DNA of 64,000 nucleotides, from positions 62,001 to 126,000 of the forward strand of contig JAQAJJ010000001.1 in assembly GCA_028278675.1 (NCBI GenBank), given 5' to 3'. The position numbers and the translations under genes were made by a program. The notes below the pieces were generated by a model. The model was not told the origin of the DNA and searched no databases. It saw only the letters and a program-made list of their open reading frames with translations. Positions 10,193 through 21,923 of this stretch are shown here, in pieces; position 1 is the first letter of the stretch; the number at the start of each line of letters is the position of its first letter. This DNA is from Candidatus Azophilus lithoversatilis (GTDB lineage: Bacteria > Pseudomonadota > Gammaproteobacteria > Pseudomonadales > Azotimanducaceae).

Positions 10193-10650
10193 CGGAAACT
10201 GATCTTGCTTGGATGGGACGGGCCCTTGAGCTGGCCGAGAGCGCTGCAACTCAGGGCGAAGTGCCGGTCGGGGCCGTTGTGGTGGACACGGCGGGCAATA
10301 CCTTGCTCGGCCGGGGCCGCAACCGGGTCATCGAGCAGCGCGACCCGAGCGCTCATGCGGAGATCGTCGCGCTTCGCGAAGCTGGGACGGCACGGGGCAA
10401 CTACCGGCTGCCGGGTGCCACTGTTTACGTTACCGTGGAGCCCTGCACCATGTGTGCGGGCGCCTTGGTTCACGCCCGCATCCAACGGCTGGTGTTCGGA
10501 GCGTCGGAGCCGCGGGCGGGCGCCGTGGAAAGCCGGGCGCGGGTGTTGGACAACCCGGCGCACAACCATCGAGTGGCTGTCAGCAGCGGTGTCATGGCAG
10601 CGGAGTGCGGCGCCCTGATGCGTGCGTTTTTCGAGGAGCGGCGGTCGTGA
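10183..10650 (+). CDS. tadA: tRNA-specific adenosine deaminase
   Basis: [11 protein letters not shown] and [14 protein letters not shown] zinc-deaminase motifs; guaA-tadA order. Confidence 0.95.
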
Positions 10651-13600
10651 CCGGCGTCTTGGCACTCGCGGGTCCGCCGGCGCGATCCGATTTCGCCTTG
10701 AGCAAGCTTCGGAAATCCCTCGGACTGGAGGTCCTCCACGCCGAGTACGTGCATGTCTTGAGCCTTGCTGAGGCGCTCGATGCCTTGGAACTGAAGCGGA
10801 CACAGGATCTTTTGCAGTACGGGCCAAGACGGGATCGCCCTGCGTTTGTGGATGGCGACGGCGGTGTGCAGCGCATGGCCACCGTCATGCCGCGGGCGGG
10901 GCTCATTTCTCCATGGTCGAGCAAGGCCACGGACATCTTCCGCATTTGCGGGCTCGGCAAGGTGGTTCGGGTGGAGCGGGGGGTGCGCTGGTTTGCCGCT
11001 CCCGGGATGGATGAGTCCCTTGTCGGGCAGCTCTACGACCGAATGACCGAGGCGCCCATGGACGAGGCGGCTTTCGAGCGCCTGTTTGAGACGCAGCCGC
11101 CACGGCCCTTCGCCCGGATCCCGGTGCTGGCGGAGGGGTCGGCGGCGCTCGAAGCGGCCAACAGCCAGCTCGGCTTGGCGTTGGCTGCGCAGGAAATCCG
11201 CTATTTGGCGGATGCTTTTGCCGAACTCGGGCGCGACCCCACGGATGTGGAGCTGATGATGTTCGCCCAAGCGAACTCTGAGCACTGCCGCCACAAGATC
11301 TTCAACGCAAGCTGGACCATCGACGGCCAGCCCATGGATCACTCGCTGTTCGACATGATCCGCCACACCGCTCGGGCGACCAACGGCTTTGGCATCTTGA
11401 GCGCCTACGCCGACAATGCGGCGGTCATCGCCGGTCCGCCCAATCAGCGCTTGATGGCGGACCCGCGCACTCGTCAATACCGCTACGTCGATGAGCAGGC
11501 GCCGGTGCTGATGAAGGTCGAGACACACAATCATCCCACCGCCATCGCGCCTTATCCGGGGGCGGCCACCGGCAGTGGCGGTGAGATTCGGGACGAGGGC
11601 GCGGTGGGACGCGGCTCCAAGCCCAAGGCGGGGCTGACCGGGTTCACCACCTCGCACCTGAACATCCCCGGCTGCCCGGAGCCTTGGGAAATCGGCACCG
11701 GCAAGCCGGAGACCATGGCCTCGGCGCTCGACATCATGCTCGAAGGCCCGATCGGCGCGGCGGCCTTCAACAACGAGTACGGTCGTCCGGGCCTGGGCGG
11801 CTACTTCCGCACCTTTGAGCAGCACGATCCCAACGATCCGCAGGTGGTGCGCGGCTACCACAAGCCCGTGATGATCGCCGGCGGCCTCGGCACGATCCGG
11901 CCCGGTCATGTGCAGGCCGAGGGCTTTGCGCCGGGCACCCAACTCGTGGTGCTCGGCGGACCGGCCATGCTCATTGGCTTGGGTGGCGGTGCCGCTTCGA
12001 GCATGGCGTCGGGGGCGAGCTCGTCGGAACTGGACTTTGCCTCCGTGCAGCGGGACAACGCGGAGATGCAGCGCCGTTGCCAGGAGGTCATCGACGCCTG
12101 CACGGCCTTGGGCGACCTAAATCCCATATTGCTGATTCACGATGTTGGCGCGGGTGGGCTGTCGAACGCCCTGCCGGAACTGGTCAAGGATGCCGGCACC
12201 GGCGGGCGCTTTGAGCTGCGCAAGGTGCCCAATGCCGACGCCGGCATGTCGCCCGCGGAGATTTGGTGCAATGAGGCCCAGGAGCGCTATGTGTTGGGCG
12301 TTGCCAAGGCGCGCTTGGACGAATTCGCGGCGCTTTGCGAGCGCGAGCGCTGTCCCTGGGCGGCGATTGGCGAGGCGACCGCCGAAAAAGACTTGGTGGT
12401 GCGGGATGAAGCCTTCGACGACCGTCCGGTGGACATGCCGCTGTCGGTGCTGTTTGGCAGCCCGCCGGCGCTGCACCGGGCGATCAAGCGATCGGCGCCG
12501 GCGCCCGCGCCCTTGGACTTGTCCAGTGTGAATATCGAGGAAGCGATTCATCGAGTGCTCGGCTTTCCGGCGGTGGCCAGCAAGCAATATCTGATCACCA
12601 TTGGCGACCGCAGCATCACTGGCCTCGTGGCCCGCGAGCAGATGGTCGGACCGTGGCAGGTGCCGGTGAGCGATGTGGCGGTGACCTTGGCGGGGTTCCG
12701 CACCTTTCGCGGCGAGGCGATGGCGATGGGCGAACGGTCTCCCCTCGCCCTGATCGATCCAGCGGCCTCCGCCCGTCTGGCGGTTGGGGAGGCGTTGACC
12801 AATCTCTTCGCTGCGGATATTGAAGCGCTCGATCGGGTGGTTCTCTCCGCCAACTGGATGGCGGCGGCGGGCAGGGACGCGGAGGAGCAGGCGTTGTTCG
12901 ACGCGGTGCGCGCCGTTGGGCTGGATCTGTGTCCGCAGCTTGGCATCGCCATTCCGGTGGGCAAGGACAGCCTGTCCATGGCCACGGGCTGGTCGGAGCA
13001 CGGTGATCGACACAGCGTCGTCTCGCCGATGACGCTGATCGTGTCGGCATTCGCGCCCGTGGTGGATGCGCGGCGGACCCTGACGCCCGCTCTGCGGCGC
13101 ACGCCTTCCCGGCTGCTGCTGGTGGACATCGGTGGCGGGCAGGGGCGTCTTGGCGGCAGCGCATTGGCCCAGTGCTACGGACAACTTGGAGATGTGTGTC
13201 CAGACCTGGATGACGCATTGGCGTTGGCTGGGGCCTTGCGGGCCACGGCGGCACTCAGCCGGGAAGGTGCGCTGCTGGCCTATCACGACCGGTCCGATGG
13301 TGGGCTGCTGGCCACCTTGGCGGAAATGGCGTTTGCCGGGCGGGTTGGCTGGGAGATCGACGTCGGGGATGAGAGTCTCTTGGCCGCGCTGTTTGCGGAG
13401 GAACTCGGTTGGGTGGTCCAAGTTGCTGATGCCCAAGTGGCCCGGATGAAGACCGCTTATGCGGATGCGGGCGTGAGGGTGGTTGATCTTGGCGCGGTGC
13501 GGACCGATGAGAGGCTGCGGATCCGCCATCGAGGCGCCGTCGTGGTGGACTCGGAGCGGGCCGCGTGGCAACGCCGGTGGGCGTCGCCAAGCTATCGGAT

Positions 13601-14507
13601 GCAGCGTCTGCGCGACAACCCCCAAGCAGCCGACGAAGAGTACGCAGGCGTCAGTGAAGCCGACCCGGGGCTGTCCGCCAAGCTGACGTTTGATCCGCGC
13701 GAGCTCGAGGCTGCGGCCTTCTCCATCGGCCAGTCGCGTCCGCGTGTTGCGGTGCTGCGGGAACAGGGCGTCAATGGGCACCTGGAAATGGCCGCGGCCT
13801 TCGACCGCGCTGGATACAGGGCTGTGGATGTCCACATGACGGAGCTGATTTCGGGTGCGGTTTCGCTGCTCGACTTCCCGGTGCTTGCCGCCTGTGGCGG
13901 CTTTTCCTACGGCGACGTGCTTGGTGGCGGGGGTGGCTGGGCGAAGAGCATCCTCCATCACGACGCGGTCCGCGACGCCTTCGCCGCCTTTTTCGCCGCC
14001 GATCGACTGGCGCTCGGGGTCTGCAACGGCTGCCAGATGATGGCCCATCTCAAGGCGCTCATTCCGGGTGCTGACTCCTGGCCAAGATTCGTGCGCAATC
14101 GCTCGGAGCAGTTCGAAGGACGCAACGTGCTGGTGCGGATCAACCCAAGCGATTCGCCTTGGCTGGCCGGCATGGCGGGCAGCGTCCTGCCGGTGCCCGT
14201 CGCCCACGGCGAGGGCCGCGCCGAATTCACCAATCCGGACGATCTTGGGCAATTGGCCTCATCGGGCCTTGTTGCGGCGCAGTACGTGGACACACATCAT
14301 CAGGTGTCGCAAGCCTACCCTGCCAATCCCAACGGTTCAGCGGACGGCCTGGCAGGCGTCACGGCGGCTAGCGGCCGGGTGTTGGTCTTGATGCCGCATC
14401 CCGAAAGGGTGTTCCGCAGCATCCAGAACGCATGGACCGAACCGTCCTGGGGTGAGGACGGCCCTTGGATGCGATTGTTCCGTAATGCGATGCGGGTTTT
14501 GAGCTAG
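10647..14507 (+). CDS. purL: Phosphoribosylformylglycinamidine synthase
   Basis: [31 protein letters not shown]-terminal GATase [12 protein letters not shown]; likely GTG start at 10647 overlapping the tadA stop. Confidence 0.97.
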
Positions 14508-14690
14508 ACGTTTCCTTCCCTGCCGCTGCCCCCTTCCGAATTGGGACACAGACACATTCCGTCCTACAGGCTGGTCGTCATATCGCACCTGCTGCTTCCG
14601 TAAATCTGCTGTTTTCGGGTGGCGAATTCCGGTATGGACTGCAGAGATTGCCGTCTAGACATCCTTGCGAACATTGGCAATTCTCATGCG

Positions 14691-15626
14691 ATGGCTACCC
14701 CACGCTACAAACTGGTGGATTCCGAACGTGCCATGAGTTACCACTTGGTCTCTCGCTGCGTTCGCGGTGCCTGGCTGTGTGGCAGAGATAGGCGCACGGG
14801 CAAGGACTACTCGCATCGCAAGCGCTGGCTGATTGAGCGGCTCTTGTTCCTGGCACAGTTTTTCGCAGTTGAGATCGACTCGTACAGCGTGATGAGCAAC
14901 CACTTTCACTTGGTGGCTTTTTTCGATCCCAAAAAGTGCTTCTCGTGGACCAACGAGGAAGTAGCATTTCGGTGGGTTGAAGCCTTTCCGCCCACCGAAG
15001 ACGGCCAAGTTGTGGAAGAGCGCAAGTCCATTGAGCGAGACCGGCTGCTAAGTGATCCCAAGCGGTTGGAACAAGCCCGCCGCACCTTGGGTTCCCTCTC
15101 CGATTTCATGAAGCACCTCAAGCAGCCGATTGCTCGCCGGGCGAACAAGGAGGATGGCTGCAAGGGGCATTTCTTCGAACAGCGGTTTTACTCCGGGGCC
15201 TTGCTTAGCGAAAAGGCAGTGCTCGCTGCCATGGCCTATGTGGACTTGAATCCGATTCGGGCGAAACTCGCGAAGCGGTTGGAGGAATGCACGGATGCAT
15301 CCATTGGAGAGCGGCTTCGGGAGAATGACTTAGCTGCACTCGATGAGTTTCTGGCACCTGTGGCTTCTGGGCTCAGTGAAGAGAAGCCGCAAACCCCGCG
15401 GATTGAGATGACGTTGAAACAGTATTTGGGGCTGCTCAACAGCCTCATCGAAGCCGATGCCGCGGAAAGCCGGGCAACGGCGAGACACCCGGATCACACG
15501 AGCCGATGGATGGCCCGAGTGGCCTCGATTCGCAAGCGCCAGCGTGCCTTTGGGCCAGTGGAATTGCTCAAGAACTGGATTGCGGATCGGGGCTTGCAAC
15601 TTCGCGAGGTTCCCCTGCTCGACTAG
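14691..15626 (+). mobile_element. IS200-like / REP-associated tyrosine transposase (RAYT, Y1_Tnp)
   Basis: YHLVSRCVRGAWLCG, SYSVMSNHFHLVAFFD (HUH), MAYVDLNPIRAKLAKRLEE. Confidence 0.85.
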
Positions 15627-15874: not shown

Positions 15875-15903
15875 TTGACAAACCCACCCACCATCGCGAT
15901 AGT
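15875..15903 (+). promoter_or_regulatory. Sigma70-type promoter upstream of the leuA leader (TTGACA-17-GATAGT)
   Basis: Exact -35 at 15875-15880, 17-nt spacer, -10-like GATAGT at 15898-15903. Confidence 0.75.
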
Positions 15904-15910
15904 GCGCCGC

Positions 15911-15982
15911 GTGAACAAGCTTCCCTCCCAAAGCCTCTCCTTGCGCCCGCAAGGCCTGCACTTGCGCCTGCTGCCGGCGTAG
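15911..15982 (+). CDS. Putative leucine-rich leader peptide (MNKLPSQSLSLRPQGLHLRLLPA)
   Basis: GTG start 7 nt after the -10 hexamer; 7 of 23 codons are Leu; stop at 15980-15982, upstream of leuA. Confidence 0.6.
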   Translation: MNKLPSQSLSLRPQGLHLRLLPA

Positions 15983-16058
15983 CCGGCACATCTCACCCCC
16001 CAAGGGCAAACGCCCGACTCGACCCCAAGCCCCGATCCACTCAGCAGGAGTCTTTGCC

Positions 16059-17777
16059 ATGAGCGAGCCTGTCGCAGTCAGCGAACCCCAATCGTCCGCA
16101 CATAAACCGCGCAGCCGTGCCAGCGGCGCGATGCCGTTCCACAAGTACCGCCCGGTCGCGCCCATCGACCTGCCCGAACGACAATGGCCGGGTCGGACCC
16201 TTGACCGCGCCCCCCGCTGGTGCAGCGTGGATCTGCGGGACGGCAACCAGGCCCTGATCGATCCGATGAACGTGCAGGAAAAGCTGCGCATGTTCGATTT
16301 GCTGCTTGAGGTCGGCTTCGCGGAGATTGAGGTCGGCTTCCCCGCGGCATCGCAGCCGGACTTCGACTTCATCCGCCGTATCATCGACGAAGGCCGGATT
16401 CCTGATGGCGTTGCCATCCAAGTGCTGTGTCAGGCGCGTGAGGAGCTCATCGAGCGCACCGTGGAAGCCTTGGCCGGCGCGCCCAAGGTCATTTTCCATC
16501 TGTACAACTCCACTTCGGAGCTGCAGCGGCGGGTGGTTTTCGGGATGGACCGCCAGGGCATCATCGACCTCGCTGTTAAGGGCGTCTCCTTGGTCAAGGC
16601 GGGCCTTGCGGCCTTGGATGCCGACATCACCTTCGAGTACTCGCCGGAGAGCTTCACCGGCACGGAACTTGATTTCGCCGTGGACATCTGCACTGCTGTG
16701 GCGGAGCAGTGGGACGCGACGATTGAGAAACCGATGATCGTCAACCTTCCGTCCACGGTGGAGATGGCCACGCCGAATGTCTATGCGGACCAGATCGAAT
16801 GGTTCGTCAGCCACTTCCCGCACCGCGACAAGGCGGTGATCAGCCTGCACACCCACAACGACCGCGGCACCGGCATCGCCGCCACTGAGTTGGCGCTGCT
16901 CGCGGGCGCCGAACGGGTTGAAGGCACCCTGTTCGGCAACGGCGAGCGCACCGGCAATTGCGACATCGTCACCACGGCGATGAACCTCTTCAGCCAGGGG
17001 GTGGATCCGGAACTGGACTTCCGCAACATGCCGCGCATCCGCCAGACCGTGGAGGCCATCAACAAGCTGCCCGTGCACGAACGCCACCCCTACGCGGGCG
17101 ACTTGGTGTTCACGGCGTTCTCAGGCTCTCATCAGGACGCCATCAAAAAGGGCATGGCGCGAGTGGATCCCGGCCGCTGGGAAGTGCCCTACCTGCCCAT
17201 TGATCCTGGCGATGTGGGTTCGTCCTACAAGGAAACCGTGCGCGTCAACAGCCAGTCCGGCAAGGGCGGCGTCGGCTTTCTGCTCGAGGAGTTCTACGGC
17301 ATCATTCTGCCCCGGGAGATGCTCAAGGAGTTCAGCGGTGTCGTCCAAAAGCTAACCGAGACACTCGACAGGGAAGTCAAGGTCCTTGAAATCTATCAAG
17401 CGCTGCTTGATGAGTACGCGGTGGATAGCGGCCCCTACCGCCTGATTGACTTTGACGTGCTTACCGGGCGTCGCGCCGAGCAAAGGTGCGTCGCCCGCAT
17501 CGAGGCGTCCGAGCAACCGGTGACCATCGATGGTGAGGGCGGCGGTCCCATTGAAGCTTTCGTTAATGGCCTTGAGGAGACCTTTAACGAGCCCGTCAAC
17601 ATCGTCGAATACCACGAACATGCGCTAACCACCGGTAGTGATGCCCAAGCCATCTGCCTGCTGGCCATCGAAGATGCCGATGGCGGGCGTTGCTATGGTG
17701 TGGGTCTTAGCCGCAACACCATCCCGGCATCCTTCAATGGGGTGGTCGCGGCTGTGAACCGCCGTTGGCGGCATTAG
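16059..17777 (+). CDS. leuA: 2-isopropylmalate synthase (long LeuA2 type)
   Basis: RAPRWCSVDLRDGNQALIDPM; LHTHNDRGTGIAATELALLAGAERVEGTLFGNGERTGN; SD AGCAGGAG. Confidence 0.97.
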   Translation: MSEPVAVSEPQSSAHKPRSRASGAMPFHKYRPVAPIDLPERQWPGRTLDRAPRWCSVDLRDGNQALIDPMNVQEKLRMFDLLLEVGFAEIEVGFPAASQPDFDFIRRIIDEGRIPDGVAIQVLCQAREELIERTVEALAGAPKVIFHLYNSTSELQRRVVFGMDRQGIIDLAVKGVSLVKAGLAALDADITFEYSPESFTGTELDFAVDICTAVAEQWDATIEKPMIVNLPSTVEMATPNVYADQIEWFVSHFPHRDKAVISLHTHNDRGTGIAATELALLAGAERVEGTLFGNGERTGNCDIVTTAMNLFSQGVDPELDFRNMPRIRQTVEAINKLPVHERHPYAGDLVFTAFSGSHQDAIKKGMARVDPGRWEVPYLPIDPGDVGSSYKETVRVNSQSGKGGVGFLLEEFYGIILPREMLKEFSGVVQKLTETLDREVKVLEIYQALLDEYAVDSGPYRLIDFDVLTGRRAEQRCVARIEASEQPVTIDGEGGGPIEAFVNGLEETFNEPVNIVEYHEHALTTGSDAQAICLLAIEDADGGRCYGVGLSRNTIPASFNGVVAAVNRRWRH

Positions 17778-20549: not shown

Positions 20550-21923
20550 ATGTTCGAAAATCTCTCCGATCGATTGAGTGGCGCCCTGAAGGGATTGTCC
20601 GGCAAGGCGCGGCTGACCGAGGACAACGTCGCCGGCGCCATGCGCGAGGTGCGCGCCGCCTTGCTCGAAGCGGATGTCGCTTTGTCCGTGGTTCGGTCGT
20701 TCACCGACAATGTCAGGCAGCGGGCCCTCGGCCAGTCAGTTGTTGCGGCCCTCGATCCGGGTGAAGCGCTGATCAAGATCGTTCACGAAGAACTCGTGGA
20801 GGTGATGGGCCAGGCGAACGATGCGTTGAACCTCGCGACGGTGCCGCCGGCTGTCATCCTCATGGCCGGTCTGCAAGGGGCGGGCAAGACCACGACCGCC
20901 GCTAAGCTCGCGCTGTTTGTGAAGGAGCGGCTTAAGAAGCGTGCGGCTCTGGTCAGCGCCGACGTTTATCGTCCAGCGGCCATTGACCAGCTTGAGGCCC
21001 TGGCCGGTCAAGTGGGCGCTCAGTTCATTGCCTCCAGCGCCTCGGAAACCCCCATCGCCATCGTCGAGCGGGCCTTGGCCGAGGCGCAGAGCAAAGTTTC
21101 CGACGTGCTGATCGTCGATACCGCCGGCCGTTTGGCGGTGGATGCGGCCATGATGGATGAAATCGCGGCTTTGCAGAAGCGCCTCAATCCGATCGAAACG
21201 TTGTTCGTTGTCGATGCAATGACCGGTCAGGACGCGGCGGCGACCGCCAAGGCATTCAATGACGCCCTGGACCTGACCGGCGTGATTCTCGCCAAGGCGG
21301 ATGGTGATGCCCGGGGCGGCGCGGCATTGTCGGTGCGCTTCCTCACGGGCAAGCCGATCAAGTTTCTCGGCATGGGTGAGAAGCCTGATGCTTTGGAACC
21401 CTTCCATCCGGACCGCCTCGCCTCGCGCATTCTCGGCATGGGCGACGTGCTCTCGTTGATCGAGGAAGCGGAGCGCAAGGTCGATCAGCGCAAGGCCGCG
21501 CGCTTGGCCAAGAAGGTCAACCGGCGGCAGAAGTTTGATCTGGCTGATTTTCGAGATCAGTTGGAGAGCATGGCCAGCATGGGCGGTGTTGGGAGCATGT
21601 TGGACAAGCTGCCCGGCATGAACCAGGTGCCGACGTCGGCGCGCGCCCAACTCGACGACGGGCAATTCCGGCGCATGGCGGTGATCATCGACTCCATGAC
21701 CCCCCATGAACGCCGCTTCCCCGATGTCGTCAACAGCTCCCGCAAGCAGCGCATTGCCCGGGGTAGCGGCACCACGGTCATCGACGTCAACCGCATGCTC
21801 AAGCAGCACCGGCAGATGCAGAAGATGATGAAGAAGTTCGGCCGCAAGGGCGGCATGCAGAACATGATGCGCGGCCTTCAGGGCATCAAGGGGGCTCAAC
21901 GTCCGCCGGGCTTGCGACGCTGA
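20550..21923 (+). CDS. ffh: Signal recognition particle protein
   Basis: GLQGAGKTTTAAKLA, DTAGRLAVD, TGQDAAATAKAFNDAL; Met-rich M domain. Confidence 0.98.
   Translation: MFENLSDRLSGALKGLSGKARLTEDNVAGAMREVRAALLEADVALSVVRSFTDNVRQRALGQSVVAALDPGEALIKIVHEELVEVMGQANDALNLATVPPAVILMAGLQGAGKTTTAAKLALFVKERLKKRAALVSADVYRPAAIDQLEALAGQVGAQFIASSASETPIAIVERALAEAQSKVSDVLIVDTAGRLAVDAAMMDEIAALQKRLNPIETLFVVDAMTGQDAAATAKAFNDALDLTGVILAKADGDARGGAALSVRFLTGKPIKFLGMGEKPDALEPFHPDRLASRILGMGDVLSLIEEAERKVDQRKAARLAKKVNRRQKFDLADFRDQLESMASMGGVGSMLDKLPGMNQVPTSARAQLDDGQFRRMAVIIDSMTPHERRFPDVVNSSRKQRIARGSGTTVIDVNRMLKQHRQMQKMMKKFGRKGGMQNMMRGLQGIKGAQRPPGLRR

Follow-up and report, generated by a model that had tools for sequence, protein, structure and literature searches.

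A conserved leader element upstream of leuA: a probable leucine attenuator with a putatively leaderless peptide and possible Rho-dependent termination

Several described leader systems resemble the region that we analyzed. The enterobacterial leuL leader (Rfam Leu_leader) likewise places a Leu-rich leader peptide directly before leuA, and sensing by ribosome stalling is its natural reading. In the actinobacterial LEU element, a pseudoknot is combined with a base stem in which the Leu run pairs with the Shine-Dalgarno (SD) sequence of leuA (Seliverstov et al. 2005, PMC1262725). In S. meliloti trpL (rnTrpL/peTrpL), the ATG of the leader ORF is itself the 5' end of the transcript (PMC7298713). 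In the Rho-dependent attenuation of the tnaC and bp2923 uORFs, a ribosome stopped close to the ORF's 3' end masks the rut site (reviewed in PMC12218461). The element described here combines traits of these systems. In the window (the whole 64,000-nucleotide stretch of DNA analyzed), it lies between a single promoter and leuA, and its best overall explanation, to which we assign a probability of about 0.6, is a leucine-starvation attenuator of leuA that would use a leaderless peptide and Rho-dependent termination.

The leader peptide and its start codon

The leader ORF and the sequences that frame it are the following.

15875-15903, + strand: sigma-70-type promoter TTGACA-17-GATAGT (-35 TTGACA at 15875-15880, -10 GATAGT at 15898-15903)
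15911-15982, + strand: leucine-rich leader ORF with GTG start (15911-15913), 23 codons including 7 Leu, and TAG stop (15980-15982)
16046-16050, + strand: Shine-Dalgarno AGGAG of leuA, assigned from the sequence
16059-17777, + strand: leuA, 2-isopropylmalate synthase, 572 aa (NF002991, E 4e-237; TIGR00970, E 5e-214; both over the cut-off)

As in an attenuator, a leucine-synthesis gene is preceded by a short leader ORF that contains a run of Leu codons. The ORF translates as MNKLPSQSLSLRPQGLHLRLLPA and is separated from leuA by 77 nt, and its GTG lies 7 nt past the -10 hexamer. Over the 1.1 kb around it, where 0.2 sigma-70-like promoter sites are expected, we found no other. The promoter, the GTG at this distance and the 23-codon ORF with its seven leucines all lie where the original prediction had placed them.

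In the window, the interval from purL (10452-14507) to the leuA promoter also contains a 335-aa ORF (14619-15626) whose match to REP-associated tyrosine transposases is weak and below the cut-off. In the congeners L002 and L004, the DNA directly 5' of the promoter resembles the end of purL instead, and because the purL end seems to sit there, the ORF may be a recent insertion adjoining the leader.

To place the leader among its relatives, we used 207 genomes from 37 genera of the window's family and also fetched upstream regions from order-level outgroups; the records of close relatives are labelled Gammaproteobacteria, Pseudomonadales, HTCC2089 or K189A clade. leuA is present in 195 of the 207 family genomes and in all 37 genera. 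Upstream of it, we observed a near-universal layout that begins with a promoter (consensus TTGrCA-17-TATAGT, identically placed in 76 of 81 leaders), a start codon soon after, and a short peptide that ends Leu-Leu/Arg-Leu-Pro-Ala/Val before the stop. Among the 80 aligned leaders, codon -1 is Leu without exception, codon -2 is Leu in 56 and Arg in 20, and codon -3 is Leu in 72, where it is spelled CTG, CTA, CTC or CTT. The last ten codons contain a mean of 5.28 Leu in the ORF's frame, whereas the other two frames average 0.66 and 0.23. Because the Leu codons vary synonymously and only that frame is rich in Leu, the alignment indicates that the Leu run is under selection as an amino acid.

A Leu-CGA(Arg)-Leu triplet recurs at the leader ends, with CGA as codon -2 in 19 of the 80 family leaders. 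The same triplet stands upstream of leuA in unrelated bacteria, alphaproteobacterial and other (L079, L083, L084, L090, L099, L109 and L255). CGA is often decoded slowly.

The position of the start codon is tied to the promoter. With the consensus as sole criterion for picking promoters, the first open in-frame ATG or GTG lay 6-9 nt past the -10 hexamer in 41 of 76 family promoters, with a mode of 7 nt, as against 5% of random positions (5-9 nt). In 25 of the 76 promoters the first in-frame start is at least 13 nt away, 17 of these at 24-28 nt. This spacing suggests that leaderless translation is common in the family and, because the second promoter group starts at 24-28 nt, that it is not universal. 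For the window itself, the distance from promoter to start points to a leader peptide that is probably leaderless, so that the earlier proposal of a leaderless, Leu-rich leader before leuA gains support from its relatives. If such starts are real, Gammaproteobacteria would have a leader-peptide switch that, in most family members, operates without a Shine-Dalgarno sequence.

Two conserved hairpins and their distribution

The RNA from the leader ORF to the leuA Shine-Dalgarno sequence contains the following structural features.

15939-15966, + strand: overlapping hairpins CCTTGC-gccc-GCAAGG (15939-15954) and CGCAAG-gcctgca-CTTGCG (15948-15966), seen in a few congeners only and outside the conserved core
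15972-15988, + strand: HP1, a 7-bp hairpin TGCCGGC-gta-GCCGGCA round the stop and the final Leu-Pro-Ala codons, identified by compensatory changes in 76 leaders and the covariance model
15989-16003, + strand: unstructured, G-free spacer CATCTCACCCCCCAA, identified by composition
16004-16015, + strand: HP2, hairpin GGGC-aaac-GCCC with no U-tract behind it, 99% of cells paired
16016-16045, + strand: C-rich, G-poor stretch past HP2 (15 C and 5 G of 30), with the spacer a candidate rut segment by composition only

In the window, the TAG sits in and just past the HP1 loop. In nearly every family leader, the 3' part of the layout consists of HP1 (GCCGGY-n3-GCCGGC) round the stop, a spacer of 14-19 nt with 5% G, HP2 (GGGC-loop-GCCC), and then ACCC. 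A covariance model of this part (R1; 80 positions, 11 pairs) has one strong match in the window, at 59.3 bits (E 2.8e-15), the next best reaching 10 bits. Because column-pair covariation on a MAFFT alignment was swamped by gap noise, we relied on 76 leaders aligned to the model. In this alignment, which is fitted to the structure and so leans towards it, 94% of cells are paired, as against 28-61% in slid controls, and 21 cells are compensatory, where shuffles give 3.9 and not one of 500 reaches 21; four pairs have changed on both sides. An alignment not fitted to the structure (A2) agreed with this. In HP2, the compensatory changes convert GGGC/GCCC to GCGC/GCGC, GGGU/ACCC and GGAC/GUCC. In 59 of 81 leaders, the stop lies two codons past the last Leu. 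In most of the remaining ones it is found 5-7 codons on, in the 3' flank of HP1, and HP1 is still kept; HP1 is therefore more than a by-product of the stop context. Together, the comparisons indicate that both HP1 and HP2 are kept by selection.

This outcome redraws the structural part of the original prediction. The three hairpins that it named all exist in the window, and our survey of the relatives, which it had called for, found the Leu codons and the third hairpin, HP1, to be conserved; the first two hairpins are not, and HP2 and the G-free spacer had been missed. The competition between the two overlapping hairpins, once thought to form the switch, is confined to some congeners; other family members do not show it, and we found no third or alternative helix in the family alignment. 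Because the conserved HP1 and HP2 are mutually compatible rather than exclusive, the classical architecture of leucine attenuation, with 1:2, 2:3 and 3:4 switching, is not supported here. We also rejected a 2:3 antiterminator formed through the HP1 3' arm: with the 5' arm masked, HP2 stays folded (median 0.96) and the 3' arm pairs diffusely downstream (0.34), with no conserved or specific partner found. Neither the family alignment nor the masking of HP1 thus revealed a mutually exclusive antiterminator conserved in relatives.

R1 matches 153 of the 207 family genomes at E<=0.1, in 33 of the 37 genera, normally with one strong match each, and the strong matches that we checked lie directly upstream of leuA. 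In an order-wide scan of 392 genomes, only family members scored above ~32 bits, and the element was not found outside the family, where matches reached 25-32 bits only. We opened five weak outgroup matches: two fall within sucC, antisense to it, and the rest in or over other reading frames. In a GC-rich genome short ORFs and hairpins are abundant, and a random ORF next to random GC-rich hairpins could in principle produce such a region. The restriction to a single element in each genome, placed at leuA in 33 genera, and its absence outside the family, together with the compensatory changes, the Leu bias of one frame and the spacing of start codon and promoter, refute this explanation, whose probability we regard as negligible.

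A conserved protein site offers another account of the same conservation. Here a leucine-sensing regulator would bind HP1 and HP2, or the corresponding palindromes, as DNA or RNA, and the ORF would be incidental. HP1 is a strong palindrome, and HP2 and the spacing are constant, as such a site would demand. However, it would account neither for Leu codons that vary synonymously in frame, in the one frame that is rich in Leu, nor for a start codon tied to the promoter, and we consider it very improbable.

A subset of genera carries a second type of leader, class B (L028-L030, L173, L175, L177-L179, L182, L183, L185-L190 and L192), in which GCCG-uuGUAGG-CGGC replaces HP1. A conserved CCTRCA downstream can pair with the GUAGG loop, and this GUAGG:CCUAC pairing is a possible pseudoknot or alternative helix; the downstream hairpins of class B are variable and have no U-tract. 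A different departure is found in the congener L251 (G008:C104, ~21430-21624), which contains a second, truncated copy. There, a leader with HP1 runs straight into a segment from within leuA (codons ~345-399) at a common GCCGGC, as if the intervening sequence had been lost by a microhomology deletion.

How transcription into leuA may be controlled

An obvious U-tract terminator was missing from the original reading of this locus, and this is borne out in the window and in most leaders. We found no U-tract behind any hairpin of the window, nor the combination of a GC hairpin and a U-tract before leuA. Across the family leaders, the 8 nt past HP2 contain 0-3 T and those past HP1 mostly 1-4 (2 in the window, CATCTCAC). 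A lenient rule for intrinsic terminators is passed by 9 of 81 leaders, mostly at HP1, as in L159 (GCCGGC-GTA-GCCGGCTTTTTCTTC). HP1 could accordingly be read as a weak intrinsic terminator: a stalled ribosome would cover its 5' arm and permit read-through, and after the ribosome's release HP1 would fold and transcription would stop at the A/U-rich spacer. Beyond these nine leaders, the stem of 7 bp, mostly G-C, and the base composition of the spacer (36% U and 4% G in 10 nt) agree with such a role. Yet the low T counts past HP1 speak against it, tight coupling would hold the ribosome on HP1 with the polymerase barely past, and HP2 is left unexplained; on balance, termination at HP1 seems unlikely.

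The leader could instead act on translation, as in the actinobacterial LEU element, if the Leu run sequestered the Shine-Dalgarno region of leuA by pairing and ribosome stalling released it. Within the genus the Leu run can indeed pair with this sequence (in L004, CUCCUGCUG with CAGCAGGAG), and folded leaders of congeners place it in long-range pairs. Across the family, however, a leader's own Shine-Dalgarno sequence is no better a pairing partner than a foreign one (mean rank 0.43-0.50), and L005-L007 are the only ones of the genus to outdo foreign leaders. In addition, simulated stalling of the ribosome alters Shine-Dalgarno pairing little, and the distance from HP1 to leuA varies from 68 to 189 nt. 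We therefore rejected sequestration by the Leu run as a family-wide device, leaving it partial support in the genus, and think it rather improbable overall.

The missing terminator raises the question of whether codon starvation is read out here by Rho rather than by alternative hairpins. The 24 nt past HP2 are ~38% C and 12% G across the family, and the peak of C minus G over 78 nt is at least 0.15 in 89% of leaders, as against 5% of upstream controls. The window's own 78-nt C>G stretch exceeds 99.85% of its + strand windows. By composition, the region thus contains an unstructured, C>G, rut-like segment of ~70-90 nt before the gene, a signal that is not exclusive to the family: the 0.15 threshold is also passed by 46% of leuA leaders from outside the family that have an intrinsic terminator and, within the family, by only 41% of class B leaders. 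Because these leaders pass too, we take the C>G composition as suggestive only of Rho; the Leu codons themselves raise the C content. Of the three effectors compared, Rho-dependent termination fits best with G-poor, C-rich RNA and no U-tract.

Leucine-dependent control through Rho would proceed as follows. Judged by the promoter-start spacing, transcription would begin at the GTG or within ~2 nt of it, and the ribosome would start the leader peptide without a Shine-Dalgarno sequence. When leucyl-tRNA is plentiful, the ribosome would cross the Leu codons, reach the stop inside HP1 and depart. The stretch of Leu codons, the G-free spacer and the C-rich tail would then be naked, weakly structured RNA, with HP1 and HP2 embedded in it, on which Rho could load and stop transcription before leuA. 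When leucine is short, the ribosome would stall in the C-terminal Leu run, cover the 5' part of the rut site and keep HP1 open, and RNA polymerase would get to leuA.

A leucine-starved ribosome in the C-terminal Leu run would thus act on the rut site with the correct sign. On the other hand, it would cover only the 5' part of the candidate rut and leave the spacer and the tail, and the role of HP2 is not explained. The presence of Rho discriminates nothing; to our knowledge, Rho is universal. Taken apart into its components, the reading is graded accordingly. That the region serves as a leucine-responsive, ribosome-mediated attenuator of leuA is, from its sequence and conservation, very probable. 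Rho as the effector is a serious possibility for which we would not quite give even odds. A tentative extension holds that leaderless peptides control Rho throughout the family, the C-rich Leu codons lying in a translated, discontinuous rut site masked by the starved ribosome and two fixed hairpins replacing antiterminator and terminator. If true, codon starvation would control Rho at an amino-acid biosynthesis gene.

Comparison with known systems

We found no family in Rfam that matches the leader element, and none of the papers searched (openly licensed ones) contained an earlier description of it. It is thus a conserved RNA element that R1 detects and Rfam 15 does not contain; the family that carries it consists of marine gammaproteobacteria, largely uncultured. 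Inspected by eye in seven family genomes, the regions upstream of ilvB and trpE held nothing comparable, so the device looks leuA-specific. A conserved block, TTTGACA...CCCCAA(C/A)AAT(A/G)CGC, lies ~100-130 nt before ilvB in the genus (L256, L258 and L260) and is probably a promoter; we saw no leader peptide near it in these three regions. In other phyla, the same type of leuA is preceded by a Leu-rich ORF in 26 of 49 cases and by a clear intrinsic terminator in 13 of 49. Because Leu-rich ORFs before leuA are widespread there, the family version is a new, uncatalogued variant of an idea that is itself widespread and already known. Four leaders from other phyla (L063, L103, L105 and L110, mostly Desulfobulbaceae-type) join a Leu-rich leader ORF to a strong intrinsic terminator and, as classical attenuators, are useful comparators.

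In contrast to enterobacterial leuL, whose Leu_leader model is not matched, the family element has its Leu run at the extreme C-terminus, its stop inside or next to HP1 and, judged by promoter spacing, its start usually at the 5' end of the transcript; it has neither a U-tract terminator nor a conserved antiterminator. With the actinobacterial LEU element it shares a leader ORF with a Leu run before the same kind of leuA, and no classical terminator was identified in either, whereas the base stem between Leu run and Shine-Dalgarno sequence is weakly supported in part of the genus and not supported in the family. The proposed masking of a C-rich rut site by a ribosome close to where a short ORF ends recalls tnaC and bp2923. 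There, the stall is caused by the nascent peptide or by arrest; in the leuA leader, where composition alone points to Rho, it would be caused by codon starvation. S. meliloti trpL differs in that it encodes Trp rather than Leu, belongs to an alphaproteobacterium and has an intrinsic terminator, but it provides a published parallel for a leader ORF that begins at the transcript 5' end in the attenuator of an amino-acid biosynthesis gene.
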